DNA of 64,000 nt from Halanaerobiales bacterium (GTDB taxonomy: Bacteria > Bacillota > Halanaerobiia > Halanaerobiales > DTU029), in assembly GCA_025451675.1 (NCBI GenBank), contig JANWJZ010000077.1, positions 1-64,000 of the forward strand. Reading direction: 5' to 3'. The notes beneath the pieces were generated by a model, which made no database searches, had not been told where the DNA came from, and saw nothing but the letters and a program-made list of their open reading frames with translations. The position numbers and the translations under genes are program-made. Shown here one piece after another: positions 33,058 to 48,482 of this stretch (its first letter is position 1; the number at the start of each line of letters is the position of its first letter).

Positions 33058-33183
33058 AATACAAATTTATAAAAATAAAGCAGGATTATAAAGATGTATG
33101 GCGAAAAGGTATATTGATGCATTAATTACAGTACTCTGGATATACTAGTGAAAAAGCATGTTTTTCCTGGGGAGGTTGACAGT

Positions 33184-35283
33184 TTGGAAATTCTTTTAGC
33201 TGAAGAAGCCGGTTTTTGCTTTGGTGTAAAAAGGGCGATAGAGAGTGCTATGGAAACTGCCCGGAATTCCGATGTCCCTGTATATACATTGGGACCCATA
33301 ATCCATAATCCCCAGGTTGTAAAGAAATTGGACGAGAAAGGTGTCAAGGTAATTGATTTCCTGGACGAGATTGAGGAAGGAGTAGTCATCATCAGATCCC
33401 ACGGGGTTTCCCCGGATGTGATCAATATGGCCAGGGAAAGGGGTTTGACGGTAGTTGATGCTACCTGTCCCTTTGTAAAAAAGGCCCAGAAGGTGGCTAA
33501 AAGCCTTGTAGATGAAGGTTATCAAACGATTATATTTGGTGATCCCGAGCATCCCGAGGTAAAGGGTATCTATGGTTCAACAGAGGGAAGGGCATATGTA
33601 GTTAATAATATAGACCAATTGCATTCTTTAGAATTGGGTAATAAAATAGGTTTTGTGGCCCAGACAACAAAATCACCGGAGTCATATCGGGATTTGATAG
33701 CTTCGATAATCGAAAAGGCTAAAGAAATAAAGGTACATAATACTATCTGTAATACTACGGAAATCCGGCAGCGGTCTGCCCGGGAACTGGCCGGGAAAGT
33801 AGATTTAATGTTTGTAATTGGGGGATATAACAGTGCAAATACAAAAAGGCTTGTTGAAATTTGCCTGGAAACTGGTACCCCAACTTATCATATAGAAACT
33901 GCTGCAGATATAAATAAGCAGTGGTTAAAGAATAAAGAAAAAATAGGTATTACAGCAGGGGCATCGACCCCCGAATGGTTAATCAAGGAGGTTATTGAGG
34001 CTATGAGTGAAGAGAAAAAAGATTTGCAGCTTGATGAAAATATTACAAAGGAAGGGGTAGTAGACGGGACTGAAACAACAGAAAATACTGCTGAAGTGAA
34101 TAATGACAGTCCAGCAGGAGAAAATAATCTGAATGAACAGATGGATTACAGTATCGCAGAGCTGAAAAGGGGCCAGATTGTTAAGGGTACTGTAAGTCAA
34201 ATAAAAGAAGATGGAGTTTATGTGGATGTAAACTACAAAACCGATGGCTTCATTCCCTTGAGGGAATTAACATATAAAGAGTTTACTGATCCCCATGAAG
34301 TGGTAGAATTAAATGAAGAAATTGATGTAGTGGTATTAACCCTTGAAGATAGTGAGGGCAATATGATCCTTTCCAAAAAGAGGGCTGATTATGAAAAAGC
34401 CTGGGAAAGGATAATGGATGCTTATGAAAATAATAAAGTTATCGAAGCTGAAGTTACAAAGGTAGTTAAAGGTGGCTTAGTAGCTGATGTAGGTTTAAGA
34501 GGCTTTATCCCGGCATCCCATGTAGATATTGGTTTTGTTGAAAATTTAGATGAATATGTAGGAAAAACACTACGACTGAAAGTAATTGAGGTAGAAAGAG
34601 ATAAAAACAATGTGGTTCTTTCTGCCAGGGAAGTCCTGGAAGAAGAAAAGGAAAGAGAAAAGGAAAAGACACTGGCTAATCTGGAAGCCGGACAGACTGT
34701 AAAAGGAAAGATAACCAAAATAGTGGATTTCGGTGCCTTCGTGGATCTTGGTGGAATAGAAGGACTCCTTCATATCTCTGAAATGTCCTGGGGTAGAATT
34801 GGCCATCCATCTGAACTCTTTGTAGAAGGACAGGAAATCGAAGTTAAGGTTTTAAGTGTAGATAAAGAAGAAGAGAGAATTTCCCTGGGTTATAAACAGT
34901 TATTGCCGGATCCCTGGGAAGAATTTCTGAAAAAACATTATGAGGGAGAGGTTATTAGTGGTACGGTTACCAAAGTAGTCGACTTCGGTGCCTTTGTAGA
35001 AGTAGAAAAAGGTGTCGAAGGACTGATCCATATCTCCCAATTATCACACCGTCATGTGAAGACCCCTGATGAAGTGGTCAGTGAGGGTGACCAGGTGCAG
35101 GTGAAGATCCTGAATATTGATGAAGAACATAAAAGAGTTGGTTTAAGTATAAAAGAATTACAGGAAAAACCGGTTGTAAAAACACCTGTAAAAACTGAAG
35201 TTAAAAAAGAAGAGGAAAGCAGTGGCGGGATAACAATCAGAGAATTGGTAGGAGATATCTTTAATACAGATACAGAGGAGTAA
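33184..35283 (+). CDS. ispH: Fused 4-hydroxy-3-methylbut-2-enyl diphosphate reductase (IspH) and S1 RNA-binding protein
   Basis: 699 residues. The N-terminal IspH domain (about 1-275) makes IPP and DMAPP in the MEP pathway and has its three iron-sulfur Cys (about 12 in GFCFGVKRA, 95 in DATCP, 189 in NTICN) and active-site His at about 41, 73 and 123. An acidic linker of roughly 50 residues joins four S1 domains (about 330-400, 415-485, 507-575, 590-660); the last two share the IVDFGAFVDL / VVDFGAFVEV pattern. Such fusions are known in Clostridia. Start: TTG 33184 after GGGGAGG gives the usual IspH N-terminus; GTG 33148 has no site. Ends at a terminator. Confidence 0.93.
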   Translation: MEILLAEEAGFCFGVKRAIESAMETARNSDVPVYTLGPIIHNPQVVKKLDEKGVKVIDFLDEIEEGVVIIRSHGVSPDVINMARERGLTVVDATCPFVKKAQKVAKSLVDEGYQTIIFGDPEHPEVKGIYGSTEGRAYVVNNIDQLHSLELGNKIGFVAQTTKSPESYRDLIASIIEKAKEIKVHNTICNTTEIRQRSARELAGKVDLMFVIGGYNSANTKRLVEICLETGTPTYHIETAADINKQWLKNKEKIGITAGASTPEWLIKEVIEAMSEEKKDLQLDENITKEGVVDGTETTENTAEVNNDSPAGENNLNEQMDYSIAELKRGQIVKGTVSQIKEDGVYVDVNYKTDGFIPLRELTYKEFTDPHEVVELNEEIDVVVLTLEDSEGNMILSKKRADYEKAWERIMDAYENNKVIEAEVTKVVKGGLVADVGLRGFIPASHVDIGFVENLDEYVGKTLRLKVIEVERDKNNVVLSAREVLEEEKEREKEKTLANLEAGQTVKGKITKIVDFGAFVDLGGIEGLLHISEMSWGRIGHPSELFVEGQEIEVKVLSVDKEEERISLGYKQLLPDPWEEFLKKHYEGEVISGTVTKVVDFGAFVEVEKGVEGLIHISQLSHRHVKTPDEVVSEGDQVQVKILNIDEEHKRVGLSIKELQEKPVVKTPVKTEVKKEEESSGGITIRELVGDIFNTDTEE

Positions 35284-35293
35284 TAAAAAATAC

Positions 35294-35326
35294 AGGGCCA
35301 TCTCAAAAAGAGATGGCTCTTTTTTA
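35294..35326 (+). terminator. Intrinsic terminator after ispH-S1
   Basis: Stem AGGGCCATCTC (35294-35304) with GAGATGGCTCT (35310-35320), one G-T pair, followed by seven T. Confidence 0.9.
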
Positions 35327-35403
35327 TGCAGAAAGAGAATAAGATTAATGAATCAGTGAGATAATATCCTTTGTAGATAAAGGATTATTTTCGAGGTGAA
35401 ATG

Positions 35404-36036
35404 ATGACTATAGGGACAATTTTGCTAATGATAACCGGTTTATTAATCTATCTGGGGGTTGCCCATAGAGTCCTGGACCGCCTGTACTTAACTGATACTG
35501 TCGCAATAATTATAATTGCTCTTATGATAATCGGCAGCTTTTTTGATTTAACAATCAGTAGAAATCCACTCTTAACGGTTAATATTGGTGGTGCACTCAT
35601 TCCCCTATTACTATCAATTTATGTATTTATAAAGGCTGATTCCAATAGGGAAAGAATCCGGACAATAATTGCTGTTATTCTTACTGCTGCAGCAATATAT
35701 GTTATAAGCATCCTATTAAAGGATTTCGGTCATGGCAGGGATATAATTGATCCTATGTATATCTTTGCAATCAGTGGTGGTGTTATCGCTTATCTTCTGG
35801 GCAGATCCCGCAGGGCATCTTTTATTGCCGGCACTCTTGGTTTCTTGCTCTATAATCTATTTATCTTTTACCGGGCCCTTACAGGAGATATCAAGGGAGA
35901 GGTAAGGTTAGGCGGAGCCGGAGTCTATGATAGTATCGTAATTTCAGGAATCCTGGCTTTATTATTGGCTGAGCTGTTGGGAGAATCCCTTGAGCGCTTA
36001 TCAGGAGGACCTTCCGGAAGAGGAGGAGAAGAATGA
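35404..36036 (+). CDS. DUF1614 family membrane protein
   Basis: 210 residues with about seven hydrophobic helices. The IGGALIPLLLSIYVF segment near residue 60 and GGAGVYDSIVISGILALLLAELL near the C-terminus match the DUF1614 type as I recall it. ATG 35404 is preferred over 35401 on spacing to GAGGTG. First gene of a row that includes a SpoIIP-type hydrolase and a YIEGIA protein, which suggests a sporulation or envelope role; no activity is known. Overlaps the next gene by four bases. Confidence 0.75.
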   Translation: MTIGTILLMITGLLIYLGVAHRVLDRLYLTDTVAIIIIALMIIGSFFDLTISRNPLLTVNIGGALIPLLLSIYVFIKADSNRERIRTIIAVILTAAAIYVISILLKDFGHGRDIIDPMYIFAISGGVIAYLLGRSRRASFIAGTLGFLLYNLFIFYRALTGDIKGEVRLGGAGVYDSIVISGILALLLAELLGESLERLSGGPSGRGGEE

Positions 36037-37109
36037 AAAAGATAAAAGTCCGGAAATTGTTACTTTTTCTTCTCTTATTTCTTTTATCTTTTCCTGCCTA
36101 CGGAGAAAAGGCAGGAGAAATGAACATAGAGGAAATTATCGGGCACAGGGAAGAGGATGTAGTCTGGGTCTATGATCAGGAAGGCAGTTATATTTTTGGT
36201 ACTGCCCTGGGTGTCAGTATTGGTGACAGATATATAGATGAGGAAAATATTGAATATGAAATAATTGAAGTAAAGGGCGACAGGGCAATTTGCAGGCAAA
36301 AGGGAAAGGTAGATTTGCTGGCAGATATAGATTCCGATCTGGCCCTACAGATTCCTCTGGCAGCAGCAGGAAGTAAAGTTGTAGCCCTTTACCATACCCA
36401 TAATGATGAATCCTACATACCCGGGCCAGTCAATATTGAAGGTGAAGGGGAGATCCACGAAGTCGGGGAAGCCTTAAAAAAAGCACTGGAGAGCAAGGGA
36501 ATAACAGTTCTGAAGAGTGAAAACCTGCATCTCCCTCATGATGGGGCAGCCTATGAACGCTCCCGGGCAACTGTAGCCGAGTTGATCCAGAAAGCGCCGG
36601 ATGTAATTTTTGATATCCATCGGGATGCCATTCCAAGAAAAGAAGAATATCAGAAAGAAGTGGATGGTAAAACGATCAGCCAGATCAGGTTGGTAGTAGG
36701 AAGACAGAACCCTAACCACAAGGTCAATGATCAATTTGCCAGAAGATTAAAAGCCATCGCCGACGAACTATATCCCGGTTTAATAAAGGGTATATTCTAT
36801 GGCAAAGGCAGTTATAACCAACATGTAGCTCCCCATTCATTATTATTGGAATTTGGCACTCATGTGACTTCAAAAGAACAGGCCATAGCCAGTGCCCAAC
36901 TGTTTGCAGAGCCGGTAAGCCGGTTGCTCTATAGTTCTAAAAACGGAGAAGAAGGAAATAAGAGTGAAGGGCGCAGTATCTCTTCAACCATCAGCTGGAT
37001 CCTTGGTATAACAGCAATTGGAGTAATCCTTTTCCTGTTTATAAATGAAGGAAGTATTTCAGGAGTTGGAGAAAGGTTGAAAAAATTTTTTAAAAGAGAA
37101 CTCAAGTAA
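36033..37109 (+). CDS. SpoIIP-type peptidoglycan amidase/endopeptidase with two membrane anchors
   Basis: 358 residues. An N-terminal hydrophobic segment or signal peptide (about 8-22) is followed by the SpoIIP catalytic region: ALYHTHNDESY (His121, His123, Glu126), VIFDIHRDA (His196) and LLLEFGTH (Glu273), the expected zinc and catalytic residues. A second hydrophobic helix at about 320-337 and a basic tail end the protein. Canonical SpoIIP acts with SpoIID in engulfment and usually has only an N-terminal anchor, so this is a variant or paralogue. Neighbours are membrane proteins of unknown function. Confidence 0.88.
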   Translation: MKKIKVRKLLLFLLLFLLSFPAYGEKAGEMNIEEIIGHREEDVVWVYDQEGSYIFGTALGVSIGDRYIDEENIEYEIIEVKGDRAICRQKGKVDLLADIDSDLALQIPLAAAGSKVVALYHTHNDESYIPGPVNIEGEGEIHEVGEALKKALESKGITVLKSENLHLPHDGAAYERSRATVAELIQKAPDVIFDIHRDAIPRKEEYQKEVDGKTISQIRLVVGRQNPNHKVNDQFARRLKAIADELYPGLIKGIFYGKGSYNQHVAPHSLLLEFGTHVTSKEQAIASAQLFAEPVSRLLYSSKNGEEGNKSEGRSISSTISWILGITAIGVILFLFINEGSISGVGERLKKFFKRELK

Positions 37110-37124
37110 AAGGGGATTGAGCTG

Positions 37125-38015
37125 ATGTTTGAATACAGCAGGATGTTTATAATCAGTTTACTCCTCGGTTTTCTTGCCAGGGCCTTTATGCTAAGGATTG
37201 ATTACCGTCAATTTCCCAGTTATCCACACTCTTATGCCATCCACTTAACCCTGGGTGCCATTGCAGCTGCCCTGGGTGCTCTGGTTATTCCGGTTCTGCT
37301 GGAAAAGGAATTTATAGCTGTAACATTCATAACTATTGCAGCACAACAATTCAGGGAAGTAAGGTCAATGGAGAGAGAAAGCCTGGCAAAGATAGAGAAA
37401 ACCGAATTAATTCCCAGGGGGGAAGCCTATATTGAAGGTATAGCTAAATTATTTGAGGCCAGGAATTACCTGGCTTTAATTAGCTCATTCGCCACAAGTC
37501 TTTTCTATTATTATTTTGGCTGGCCGGTGGCTATTATAGGCGGTAGTATAAGTGCCTATATTTTGCATTGGTTTATGAAAGGACCAACAGTGGGAGATAT
37601 AGCAGAGGTGCAGCTGGCAGATATTACTTTTAAAGGTAAAAACATAGGTATAGATGAAGTAATCATGATGAATGTAGGTGAAGAAGAAGCCCTGGAAGTA
37701 TGGGCAAAAGAAGGCATAGGTATAAAGATTATACCAAAGGATGAAGATGCCAGGGCGACTTTGGCTAATCTTGGCCAGCGGCAGGCTATTTTACATGACC
37801 TGGCTATTTTAATGGGGGTAAAACTTGACCAGGGACTACAACATTTTTCACCCCTGGCCAGGTTAGATATCGATAATGGGACTTTAAATATCATCTTTAT
37901 TCCCCAGGAACCGGATGAGCTATTTATCAAAGAAGCAGTGGAAAGAATACCGGTGCTGGAGAGTTCACAGAGGAAACCGCTTAAAGACAGGATTGGCAGG
38001 AAAGCTGCTGATTAA
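37125..38015 (+). CDS. YIEGIA family membrane protein
   Basis: 296 residues. N-terminal helices (about 7-20, 40-60 and 62-75), the family-naming motif AYIEGIAKLFEARNYLAL near residue 102, further helices near 115-150, then a cytoplasmic domain (about 160-296). The family is largely confined to spore-forming Firmicutes; its biochemical role is unknown. The next small gene encodes the partner named as its capping subunit. AAAGGGG precedes the ATG. Confidence 0.88.
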   Translation: MFEYSRMFIISLLLGFLARAFMLRIDYRQFPSYPHSYAIHLTLGAIAAALGALVIPVLLEKEFIAVTFITIAAQQFREVRSMERESLAKIEKTELIPRGEAYIEGIAKLFEARNYLALISSFATSLFYYYFGWPVAIIGGSISAYILHWFMKGPTVGDIAEVQLADITFKGKNIGIDEVIMMNVGEEEALEVWAKEGIGIKIIPKDEDARATLANLGQRQAILHDLAILMGVKLDQGLQHFSPLARLDIDNGTLNIIFIPQEPDELFIKEAVERIPVLESSQRKPLKDRIGRKAAD

Positions 38016-38026
38016 GGGGGAATTTG

Positions 38027-38215
38027 ATGGGCGAAAGCAATATACTGGCCATCATTACTACAAAAAATAACCGGGACAAGGTAGGAGGTGGTGTGCCTAT
38101 ATTTTATGCCGATAGCCAGGAGGAAATGGAAGAAATGAGCAGTTTACTGGCCCGGATTACCCTGGCCATGGTCCACGATCTGGAAAATGGTATCAAAATT
38201 ATTGTCAGACATTGA
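38027..38215 (+). CDS. Capping complex subunit for YIEGIA
   Basis: 62 residues, soluble. Sequence type: SNILAIITTKNNRDKVGGGVP followed by a helix (EEMEEMSSLLARITLAMVHDL, shown in part) and a final strand IKIIVRH. It always lies next to YIEGIA genes in the genomes I know of. ATG 38027 follows AAGGGGG; TTG 38024 is an alternative. Its stop overlaps the next gene's nominal start. Confidence 0.8.
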   Translation: MGESNILAIITTKNNRDKVGGGVPIFYADSQEEMEEMSSLLARITLAMVHDLENGIKIIVRH

Positions 38216-38631
38216 GGGAGGAGATAAAATTAATTATATTTCTCTGTACAGGTTATAGCCCACTGCCCTTTTTTTTATTTTATTTATTTTTCGCAAAAGG
38301 GAAGAGTTTCAATGAAATATTTAGTGCTGCTATAATGGATTACCGGAAATATAAAGAGGAGAAAAAAGTCCTACTGAGAGTATATCCAGAAAGGCCTGAA
38401 AAATTATTTATATTGATTGGTGGCAGGAAAAAGAGGGTAGTTTTACAGGCCCTGGATGGCTACCTGAAAATGTTTGGGATAAATCATAATTATCAATTGC
38501 TGGATATTTCCCGTTATGAAAAGAGCTGCTGTAAACTGGCCTCCTTAATGGAAAGGGTCGGATTAAAGTCTTTGCCTATTAATTTATATAAATATTCCTG
38601 CCGGCAAATTTATAGGAAGATAAAGGACTGA
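38212..38631 (+). CDS. Diverged DUF3189-like protein, probable paralogue of next gene
   Basis: Up to 139 residues. The nominal start is TTG 38212, but it has no ribosome-binding site. GGGAGGAG (38216-38223) sits nine bases before ATT 38233, and starting there gives MIFLCTGYS, in register with MIVLYHCYG of the downstream protein. The two proteins share a further pattern: KLFILIGGRKKRVVLQAL aligns with KIYVQGMGGSDRIVINLL, followed by YG/FGI and LL. So the pair arose by tandem duplication and this copy has diverged. Function unknown. Confidence 0.7.
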   Translation: MREEIKLIIFLCTGYSPLPFFLFYLFFAKGKSFNEIFSAAIMDYRKYKEEKKVLLRVYPERPEKLFILIGGRKKRVVLQALDGYLKMFGINHNYQLLDISRYEKSCCKLASLMERVGLKSLPINLYKYSCRQIYRKIKD

Positions 38632-38635
38632 TAGG

Positions 38636-39106
38636 ATGATTGTCTTATATCATTGTTACGGGGCTGCCCATTCTTCAGTACTTTCAGCGGCGATACATCT
38701 TGGCCTCTTAGCAGATGATAGAATTCCAGGGATAAAGGAAATCAGGGAAATACCCTATTTTGACAGGAATAAAACAGAAGAGATTGGTATCCCCTTTTTA
38801 TATGGCATTGATAAGTGGGGTAATAAAATCTATGTCCAGGGAATGGGTGGCTCTGATAGAATTGTCATCAATTTATTGAAAGATATAATGGCATTATACG
38901 GGATTCCGGAAAGGGAGATATTGTTGGTCAATGCCCTGGAAAATGTCAATATCCTGGTGAGGATAGGGGGTTTTTTATCCCGCCGTTTAGGCCTTGTCTT
39001 TCCTGGCCGCGTAATAAGTATAATTGGCTTACAGCTGGCTTATCCAAAATTTCTCAGAACTGTCCAGAGGGTGAAAGATTATATTGCTAAGTTTTATGAA
39101 ATGTGA
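38636..39106 (+). CDS. DUF3189 family protein
   Basis: 156 residues. N-terminal MIVLYHCYGAAHSSVLSAAI is the DUF3189 signature, with a possible nucleotide-binding Ser/His-rich turn. GIDKWGNKIYVQGMGGSD is also typical. The family is found mainly in spore-forming Clostridia, near YIEGIA genes; its role is unknown. Preceded by a diverged paralogue and followed by the DUF512 radical SAM gene. Confidence 0.82.
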   Translation: MIVLYHCYGAAHSSVLSAAIHLGLLADDRIPGIKEIREIPYFDRNKTEEIGIPFLYGIDKWGNKIYVQGMGGSDRIVINLLKDIMALYGIPEREILLVNALENVNILVRIGGFLSRRLGLVFPGRVISIIGLQLAYPKFLRTVQRVKDYIAKFYEM

Positions 39107-47201: not shown

Positions 47202-48482
47202 TTGGCTGCCGATATATGGGAAGATTTTATTAAAATATTACTGGAATTCGGCTATAATTTAAATGTAAAGGAAAATAAGGAGGAAAATCTGAAGTTTGTC
47301 TGGGAAATTATTATAAATATAAAGAAAAATATGAAAGAGGAATTGGAACAGGCCATCAGAATGAATCTTAACCTTTGCTATGCCCTGGAAGAAGAAGGAC
47401 AGGTTAAAATACTGAATACAGGGATATTGAAACTAAATTATCTCTTAGATCAGAACATCTATCGACTGGATAATGATCCTCAAAAAGGTTTAATGGATTT
47501 TCACAAAATTCTTATTTCAACCTATGGTAATATCGATAACTTTATAAAAAATATCAAAACTGTAAAGGAAAATATATCTTTTATCCGTAAGAGAATGGAC
47601 CAGGAGCTTATTGATAAATATAATTATTTAAGAAAAATTACTTTACCGTTAAGGGGCTATGAAAACCTGCGGATTTCCTTAATTACACTCCTGGAAAAAT
47701 TTAAAGAAATCAAAGATATTGTTACCGACCCGGAGATTTATATAAATTTTAATACAGAATTAGATTATTTTATAAGGGAATATCAGAAAATTTACCGGCA
47801 GGAACATGATGCCTTTCACCAAAACTTAAAGGACTTTTATCAGAAATTATATAATTTACCTGAATATAAGGCTCTGGAGAACCTCTCCCGGATAGAGCTT
47901 ATTAATGTGGCCTATAATTTAAAACCTATCAAGAAATATATTGATACATTTTTCCCGGAAGAATGTACTGTTTCAGATCTGGATGATATGTTAAATAATA
48001 ATGTTAAATGCCACTGTGGTTTTACTATTGGTGAATCCTTTACAGTTCCTTCCCTTAATAAGATTAAACCCATGTTGAGAAAAGGAATAGCAGAATACAT
48101 AGAAAAAATCCAGAATAAAAGGTTCAGGCCTTTATTTGATAATTACTTAAGTTATAATAAGGATTCAATACTAAAATATATTCTGGATTACAAAATAGAT
48201 AAGGTTAATGGTTCAATTAAATATATAAATGAAGACCTGGTTAGAGAAATAAATAATGCCCTCAGTAATACCTATCCATTGAAAATATCCCTGGAGGAAA
48301 TAATCCCCAATATAACAGGTATATATTCCATTAATCAATTAAATCTCCTTGCTGAAGATCTGGAAAGAAACATAAAAAAAGCAGTCAGGAAAAAAATTAA
48401 GGGAATTGAAGATATTAAATATGAAAATATAGTGATAAATTTAGTCCTCCAGGAAGGAACTCAGGATTTTTCTGTAGAATGA
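47202..48482 (+). CDS. Unknown 426-residue protein with a Cys motif
   Basis: Not recognised. Soluble, largely helical, rich in Lys, Glu, Asn and Ile, with coiled-coil-like stretches (about 30-130 and 150-225). Near residues 255-275 there is PEECTVSDLDDML then VKCHCGFTIGES, with Cys at about 257, 272 and 274, a possible metal site or half zinc ribbon. No P-loop or nuclease motif was found. The Cys-bearing part resembles the C-terminal end of large multi-domain proteins in my memory, but I cannot name one. TTG 47202 is the nominal start; AGGGGG (47181-47186) lies far from it, so ATA 47196 or TTG 47202 is uncertain. Monocistronic, between pgsA and mtaD. Confidence 0.6.
   Translation: MAADIWEDFIKILLEFGYNLNVKENKEENLKFVWEIIINIKKNMKEELEQAIRMNLNLCYALEEEGQVKILNTGILKLNYLLDQNIYRLDNDPQKGLMDFHKILISTYGNIDNFIKNIKTVKENISFIRKRMDQELIDKYNYLRKITLPLRGYENLRISLITLLEKFKEIKDIVTDPEIYINFNTELDYFIREYQKIYRQEHDAFHQNLKDFYQKLYNLPEYKALENLSRIELINVAYNLKPIKKYIDTFFPEECTVSDLDDMLNNNVKCHCGFTIGESFTVPSLNKIKPMLRKGIAEYIEKIQNKRFRPLFDNYLSYNKDSILKYILDYKIDKVNGSIKYINEDLVREINNALSNTYPLKISLEEIIPNITGIYSINQLNLLAEDLERNIKKAVRKKIKGIEDIKYENIVINLVLQEGTQDFSVE

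Follow-up and report, generated by a model that had tools for sequence, protein, structure and literature searches.

Does the SpoIIP-like gene in a compact row of membrane protein genes of a Halanaerobiales bacterium belong to the engulfment machine of SpoIID, SpoIIM and SpoIIP (DMP), or to a machine of its own? The row lies on the + strand at 35401-39106 of the window, by which we mean the whole analysed stretch of 64,000 nucleotides of contig JANWJZ010000077.1, and its six open reading frames (ORFs) encode a DUF1614 protein, the SpoIIP-like protein, YIEGIA, YIEGIA_cap and two DUF3189 proteins. We propose, with a probability of roughly 60%, that DUF1614 and the SpoIIP-like protein form a sporulation-linked membrane complex in which a peptidoglycan amidase is anchored by its C-terminus, and that this complex is distinct from the DMP machine of engulfment; we infer the activity, the physical complex, the topology and the time and place of action. 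For the DUF1614-linked SpoIIP paralogue we have coined the name SpoIIP2. A preliminary description of the locus had SpoIIP leading the row, but the DUF1614 gene comes first and its stop overlaps the start of SpoIIP2 by 4 bases. The pair and the parts of the hydrolase are placed as follows.

35401 to 36036, + strand: DUF1614 membrane protein, YphA-related, partner of SpoIIP2 (Pfam, model, adjacency, natural fusions)
36033 to 37109, + strand: SpoIIP2, predicted SpoIIP-family peptidoglycan hydrolase with a C-terminal membrane helix
36033 to 36104, + strand: predicted N-terminal export signal of SpoIIP2, residues 1-24, possible signal peptidase site after AYG (hydropathy)
36150 to 36317, + strand: N-terminal beta domain of SpoIIP2, about residues 40-95, outside the Pfam match (model strands 44-92; conserved block)
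36363 to 36932, + strand: catalytic domain of SpoIIP2, amidase_3-like fold (Pfam, structure match, invariant residues)
36987 to 37043, + strand: C-terminal transmembrane helix of SpoIIP2, residues 319-337, then a short basic tail (hydropathy, model)

The genome encodes two SpoIIPs, and the canonical one adjoins gpr at G000:C56, an arrangement described for C. difficile as well, as a gpr-spoIIP operon (PMC3789822). The gene in the row is thus not the sole spoIIP, and it departs from the canonical one in both respects, having DUF1614 instead of gpr as neighbour and lying on a separate branch with a C-terminal helix. Within the window's class SpoIIP was found in 26 of 49 genomes, nearly all of which carry two, while the 23 genomes without canonical SpoIIP were also without SpoIIP2. 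For the comparison of lineages we collected 263 complete, distinct SpoIIPs from the window's class, from named genome contigs and from 199 genomes spread around a Thermoanaerobacter genome. As the profile used to assign proteins to SpoIIP2 covers the helix, possible circularity was checked with a tree built on the catalytic domain only, with the helix columns left out and 40 SpoIIP2 sampled (quick search). All 40 fell on one side of a branch of length 0.76 with a Shimodaira-Hasegawa-like approximate likelihood ratio (SH-aLRT) support of 100; it should be noted that the tree was midpoint-rooted and supports a bipartition without telling which way the duplication went. Four fusion proteins that have no helix were still assigned to SpoIIP2 by score (about 290 against 172 bits). 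The split is old, because it is found across both Halanaerobiia and Clostridia, and a recent spoIIP duplication was rejected by the same tree. In the whole set gpr linkage was seen for 62 of the 103 other SpoIIPs against none of the SpoIIP2. The view of SpoIIP2 as an ancient paralogue, with its lineage, helix and DUF1614 pairing, is well supported, and the earlier suggestion of a variant differing from engulfment SpoIIP is borne out.

SpoIIP2 is a member of the SpoIIP family by both models, scoring 200.2 bits against a cut-off of 24.4 for PF07454 and 171.8 against 123.15 for TIGR02867, and the Pfam match covers only its residues 111-293. It shares with canonical SpoIIP the catalytic fold, scores above both cut-offs, and the residues H123, E126, H196, R197 and E273, which are invariant in the 160 SpoIIP2 and 103 other SpoIIPs (263/263). 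In C. difficile SpoIIP, H142 and H222 are required for activity and sporulation (PMC6221140); H123 and H196 appear to correspond to these, as judged by motif order and spacing rather than by direct alignment. The AlphaFold2 model (mean predicted local distance difference test score, pLDDT, 82.8) matches amidase_3 structures including Ami1 and a C. difficile amidase, with E-values down to 2.6e-6, and from this fold match SpoIIP2 would be expected to act as an amidase or endopeptidase. A search of the SpoIIP2 profile against Protein Data Bank (PDB) sequences gave nothing significant, and the matches to amidases were by fold only.

Outside the catalytic domain the two proteins differ, SpoIIP2 having a signal-like N-terminus, a beta N-domain and the C-terminal helix in addition to its different neighbour and lineage. 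The extra helix that had been noticed on the hydrolase was seen both by hydropathy (residues 319-337) and in the AlphaFold2 model (312-339). It is present in all 26 orthologues in the window's class and absent from the 25 canonical SpoIIPs, so it is not a chance feature; in the full set a hydrophobic helix follows the catalytic domain in 160/160 complete SpoIIP2 and 0/103 others, and the median tail past the catalytic domain, in the stretch examined, is 83 residues against 14. It had also been postulated that the catalytic domain is held at both ends. The C-terminal helix is there, but the double anchor is doubtful, as the N-terminus is signal-peptide-like in many relatives: by a crude rule, a strict AxA site follows the first hydrophobic stretch in 53/160 SpoIIP2 against 5/103 others, as would be expected if some members at least have their signal peptide cleaved off. 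The window's SpoIIP2 has AYG at the possible cleavage position. We lean towards a single, C-terminal anchor, which would be the reverse of canonical SpoIIP.

The pairing with DUF1614 is close to obligate. In the fetched stretches DUF1614 adjoins SpoIIP2 on the same strand for 157 of 160 SpoIIP2 genes; one of the three without a separate DUF1614 is a fusion (L216), and the others (L048, L050) stand alone, L050 being an extra SpoIIP2 copy in its genome (G009). To avoid circularity, 80 loci of the short, YphA-like DUF1614 type were drawn from the 199 genomes regardless of SpoIIP, and these held SpoIIP2 in 78 cases, YIEGIA in 42, and SpoIIP2 without YIEGIA in 38. Across the same genomes at least two SpoIIPs were found in 137 of 144 DUF1614-positive genomes against 3 of 55 others (p 3e-36, a value that overstates the number of independent events since the genomes are related). 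DUF1614 precedes its partner in 197 loci, and in two (L111, L118) the order is reversed with the pair kept. In one locus (L265) DUF1614 is flanked by two SpoIIP2 genes. Ten Clostridia loci of another, strong-scoring DUF1614 type (L277-L286; full-length Pfam match, E below 1e-48) had no same-strand SpoIIP partner.

The DUF1614 model has seven helices with a beta hairpin between helices 2 and 3, and its best match among solved structures reached an E-value of just 0.19. B. subtilis YphA (PF24124) is one of its nearest known likenesses: all 39 DUF1614 proteins matched the DUF1614 family and 25 of them also the YphA family (E 0.1 or better; best 2e-10), the window's own protein scoring below the YphA cut-off (17.1 against 28). 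Like SpoIIM, the scaffold of DMP, DUF1614 is a polytopic membrane protein that would work with a SpoIIP, but the two show no profile similarity (hhalign probability 0.2%), and DUF1614 as a diverged SpoIIM was rejected.

Five genomes encode DUF1614 and SpoIIP2 in one ORF (L216, L327-L330). The L216 ORF comprises DUF1614 at residues 1-209 and SpoIIP2 at 243-569 and keeps the C-terminal helix; the L327-L330 fusions, from four genomes that look closely related, end after the catalytic domain and have lost it. This suggests that a covalent tether by DUF1614 makes the helix dispensable. Counting seven helices from the DUF1614 model and one spacer helix in the fusion, the catalytic domain would lie outside. 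In the mechanism we propose, SpoIIP2 would be exported with its catalytic domain outside the cytoplasm, stay on the membrane through the C-terminal helix and cut peptidoglycan stem peptides as SpoIIP does, and the seven-helix DUF1614 protein would hold or control it. The SpoIID-SpoIIM-SpoIIP engulfment machine would be supplemented and not replaced by the pair, whose likeliest place of action is the interface of mother cell and forespore.

SpoIIGA, the protease that processes sigma-E, is a marker of sporulation, and among the 199 genomes it is present in every DUF1614-positive one that has two or more SpoIIPs. The assignment of the hydrolase as sporulation-type is upheld, as SpoIIP2 is confined to genomes with this marker and is present in addition to DMP genes. 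SpoIIM was found on contig C38 of this genome and SpoIID-domain genes at C87, C22 and C77:64726, just past the end of the window; all three DMP proteins thus have homologues apart from the row. The domain at G000:C77:64726-64992 lies in a 711-amino-acid ORF of a type present also in class members without SpoIIP; it is therefore unlikely to be the sporulation SpoIID. That no SpoIID or SpoIIM gene lies nearby had been noted together with the suggestion of a separate machine; none lies within the window, but this carries little information, since the canonical spoIIP, spoIIM and spoIID are themselves spread over different contigs.

Several points weigh against a dedicated DUF1614-SpoIIP2 complex. 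A few SpoIIP2 genes stand alone, as said, and two DUF1614-YIEGIA loci (L202, L245) have no SpoIIP2. Conserved neighbours can be co-regulated without contact, and the fusions are perhaps two independent events, with four of the five from one group. SpoIIGA tracks every SpoIIP, hence its co-occurrence ties the pair to spore formers and not to a stage. The sigma-G-like promoter candidate placed below is at chance level, with one match per 64 kb against 0.68 expected. A different explanation, which we regard as unlikely, is that SpoIIP2 merely duplicates canonical SpoIIP within the DMP machine and has no separate machine; one copy might, for example, serve the mother cell and the other the forespore. 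The identical catalytic residues agree with this, and so do the dependence of C. difficile spoIIP on sigma-F and sigma-E and the two spoIIP genes reported for B. anthracis under sigma-F and sigma-E (PMC3789822). What speaks against it is the old, separate lineage with its long branch (0.76), a different N-terminal domain and reversed anchor, and the near-obligate partner DUF1614, together with the gpr link seen in other SpoIIPs and in no SpoIIP2.

It seems quite improbable that all six genes of the row, with YIEGIA among them, make up one machine, as the preliminary description supposed. Most of the window's class does retain the order DUF1614-SpoIIP2-YIEGIA-cap, and 40 of the 80 drawn loci contain both SpoIIP2 and YIEGIA. 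However, YIEGIA is absent from 38 of the 78 SpoIIP2 loci and from 55 DUF1614-positive genomes, DUF1614 is absent from 5 genomes that have YIEGIA, and Pfam describes YIEGIA_cap as a partner of YIEGIA itself. Since YIEGIA, cap and DUF3189 need not be present, we take DUF1614 and SpoIIP2 as the unit; YIEGIA and DUF3189 probably have an accessory or an independent role. Still less probable, and in our view very much so, is a general envelope factor with no specific role in sporulation. Control searches found DUF1614 relatives in archaea, Clostridia contain the separate DUF1614 type that has no SpoIIP partner, and SpoIIP has been noted in many non-spore-formers by Makarova et al. (PMC5898192); against this, the SpoIIGA result had no exception, and the 23/49 class genomes without canonical SpoIIP are also without SpoIIP2.

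The remaining features of the row are listed here.

35294 to 35320, + strand: intrinsic terminator, 11-bp stem and T-run, between rpsA and DUF1614
35337 to 35366, + strand: candidate sigma-G-like (forespore) promoter, GAATA-N18-GATAATA, a weak lead only
37125 to 38015, + strand: YIEGIA (YphB-type) membrane protein, frequent but optional neighbour (Pfam, locus counts)
38024 to 38215, + strand: YIEGIA_cap small protein, optional neighbour (Pfam)
38212 to 38631, + strand: divergent DUF3189 protein, optional neighbour (Pfam)
38636 to 39106, + strand: DUF3189 protein, optional neighbour (Pfam)

All six ORFs that had been described as packed within 3.7 kb are present and their families were confirmed by Pfam, with E-values of 5.6e-18 (DUF1614), 5.9e-59 (SpoIIP), 4e-119 (YIEGIA), 4e-27 (YIEGIA_cap), 2.7e-5 (first DUF3189 gene, barely above the cut-off) and 1.3e-50 (second). 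The gene order cmk, plsC, ispH-rpsA, DUF1614, SpoIIP, YIEGIA, cap, DUF3189, DUF3189, DUF512 radical SAM, der, plsY, gpsA, spoIVA is common to relatives. The row probably has its own transcription, as the terminator sits between rpsA and DUF1614; similar hairpins precede DUF1614 in the near relatives L062, L053 and L055. Both boxes of the promoter candidate are kept in L038 and L062 with a partly different spacer, and scans of relatives for sigma-E, sigma-F and sigma-G motif patterns found nothing. Upstream, a single 711-amino-acid ORF at 33148-35283 codes for IspH and RpsA (S1). Elsewhere in the window, a 426-amino-acid ORF at 47202-48482 has no Pfam match at E 1e-4. Extra, lower-scoring YIEGIA copies lie off-cluster in G005, G038, G040, G046, G048, G141 and G168, and a broken copy in G047; the YIEGIA gene of Thermovorax subterraneus (L079, G052:C22:79647-80492) has one in-frame TAA and may be broken or contain a sequencing error.

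In the open literature we found no functional paper on yphA, yphB, seaA or DUF1614. Makarova, Galperin and Koonin (2015; PMC5898192; arCOG02159) observed that DUF1614 homologues adjoin SpoIIP and yphB in several bacteria, and proposed a membrane-remodelling complex for DUF1614-SpoIIP-YphB. Their neighbourhood, with YphB being YIEGIA, is the same as here; the passage concerned does not tell this SpoIIP apart from the engulfment one and is silent on the C-terminal helix, on fused forms, on the pair as core and on any tie to a sporulation marker. What our analysis adds is that this SpoIIP forms a lineage apart, that its anchor would be reversed, that the unit comes down to DUF1614 and SpoIIP2, that the two can be fused and that they co-occur with the marker.

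Further, we speculate, at somewhat less than even odds, that endospore formers ancestrally had two independent SpoIIP machines, DMP and DUF1614-SpoIIP2 with DUF1614 as a SpoIIM-like scaffold, the second being lost in Bacillus and leaving yphA-yphB. A control search found the YIEGIA family (YphB) in B. subtilis, where the yphA-yphB locus presumably has no SpoIIP gene in between and may be a remnant after the loss of SpoIIP2. Engulfment genetics rests mostly on B. subtilis and C. difficile, with one SpoIIP studied in each, and if the proposal is true, loss in Bacillus would have let a second machine be missed by model-organism genetics. Current family models lump both SpoIIP types as 'stage II sporulation protein P'. 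The pair would then add a wall-remodelling step in much of Clostridia and Halanaerobiia, and would give a first functional handle on YphA and on DUF1614, a family found also in archaea.

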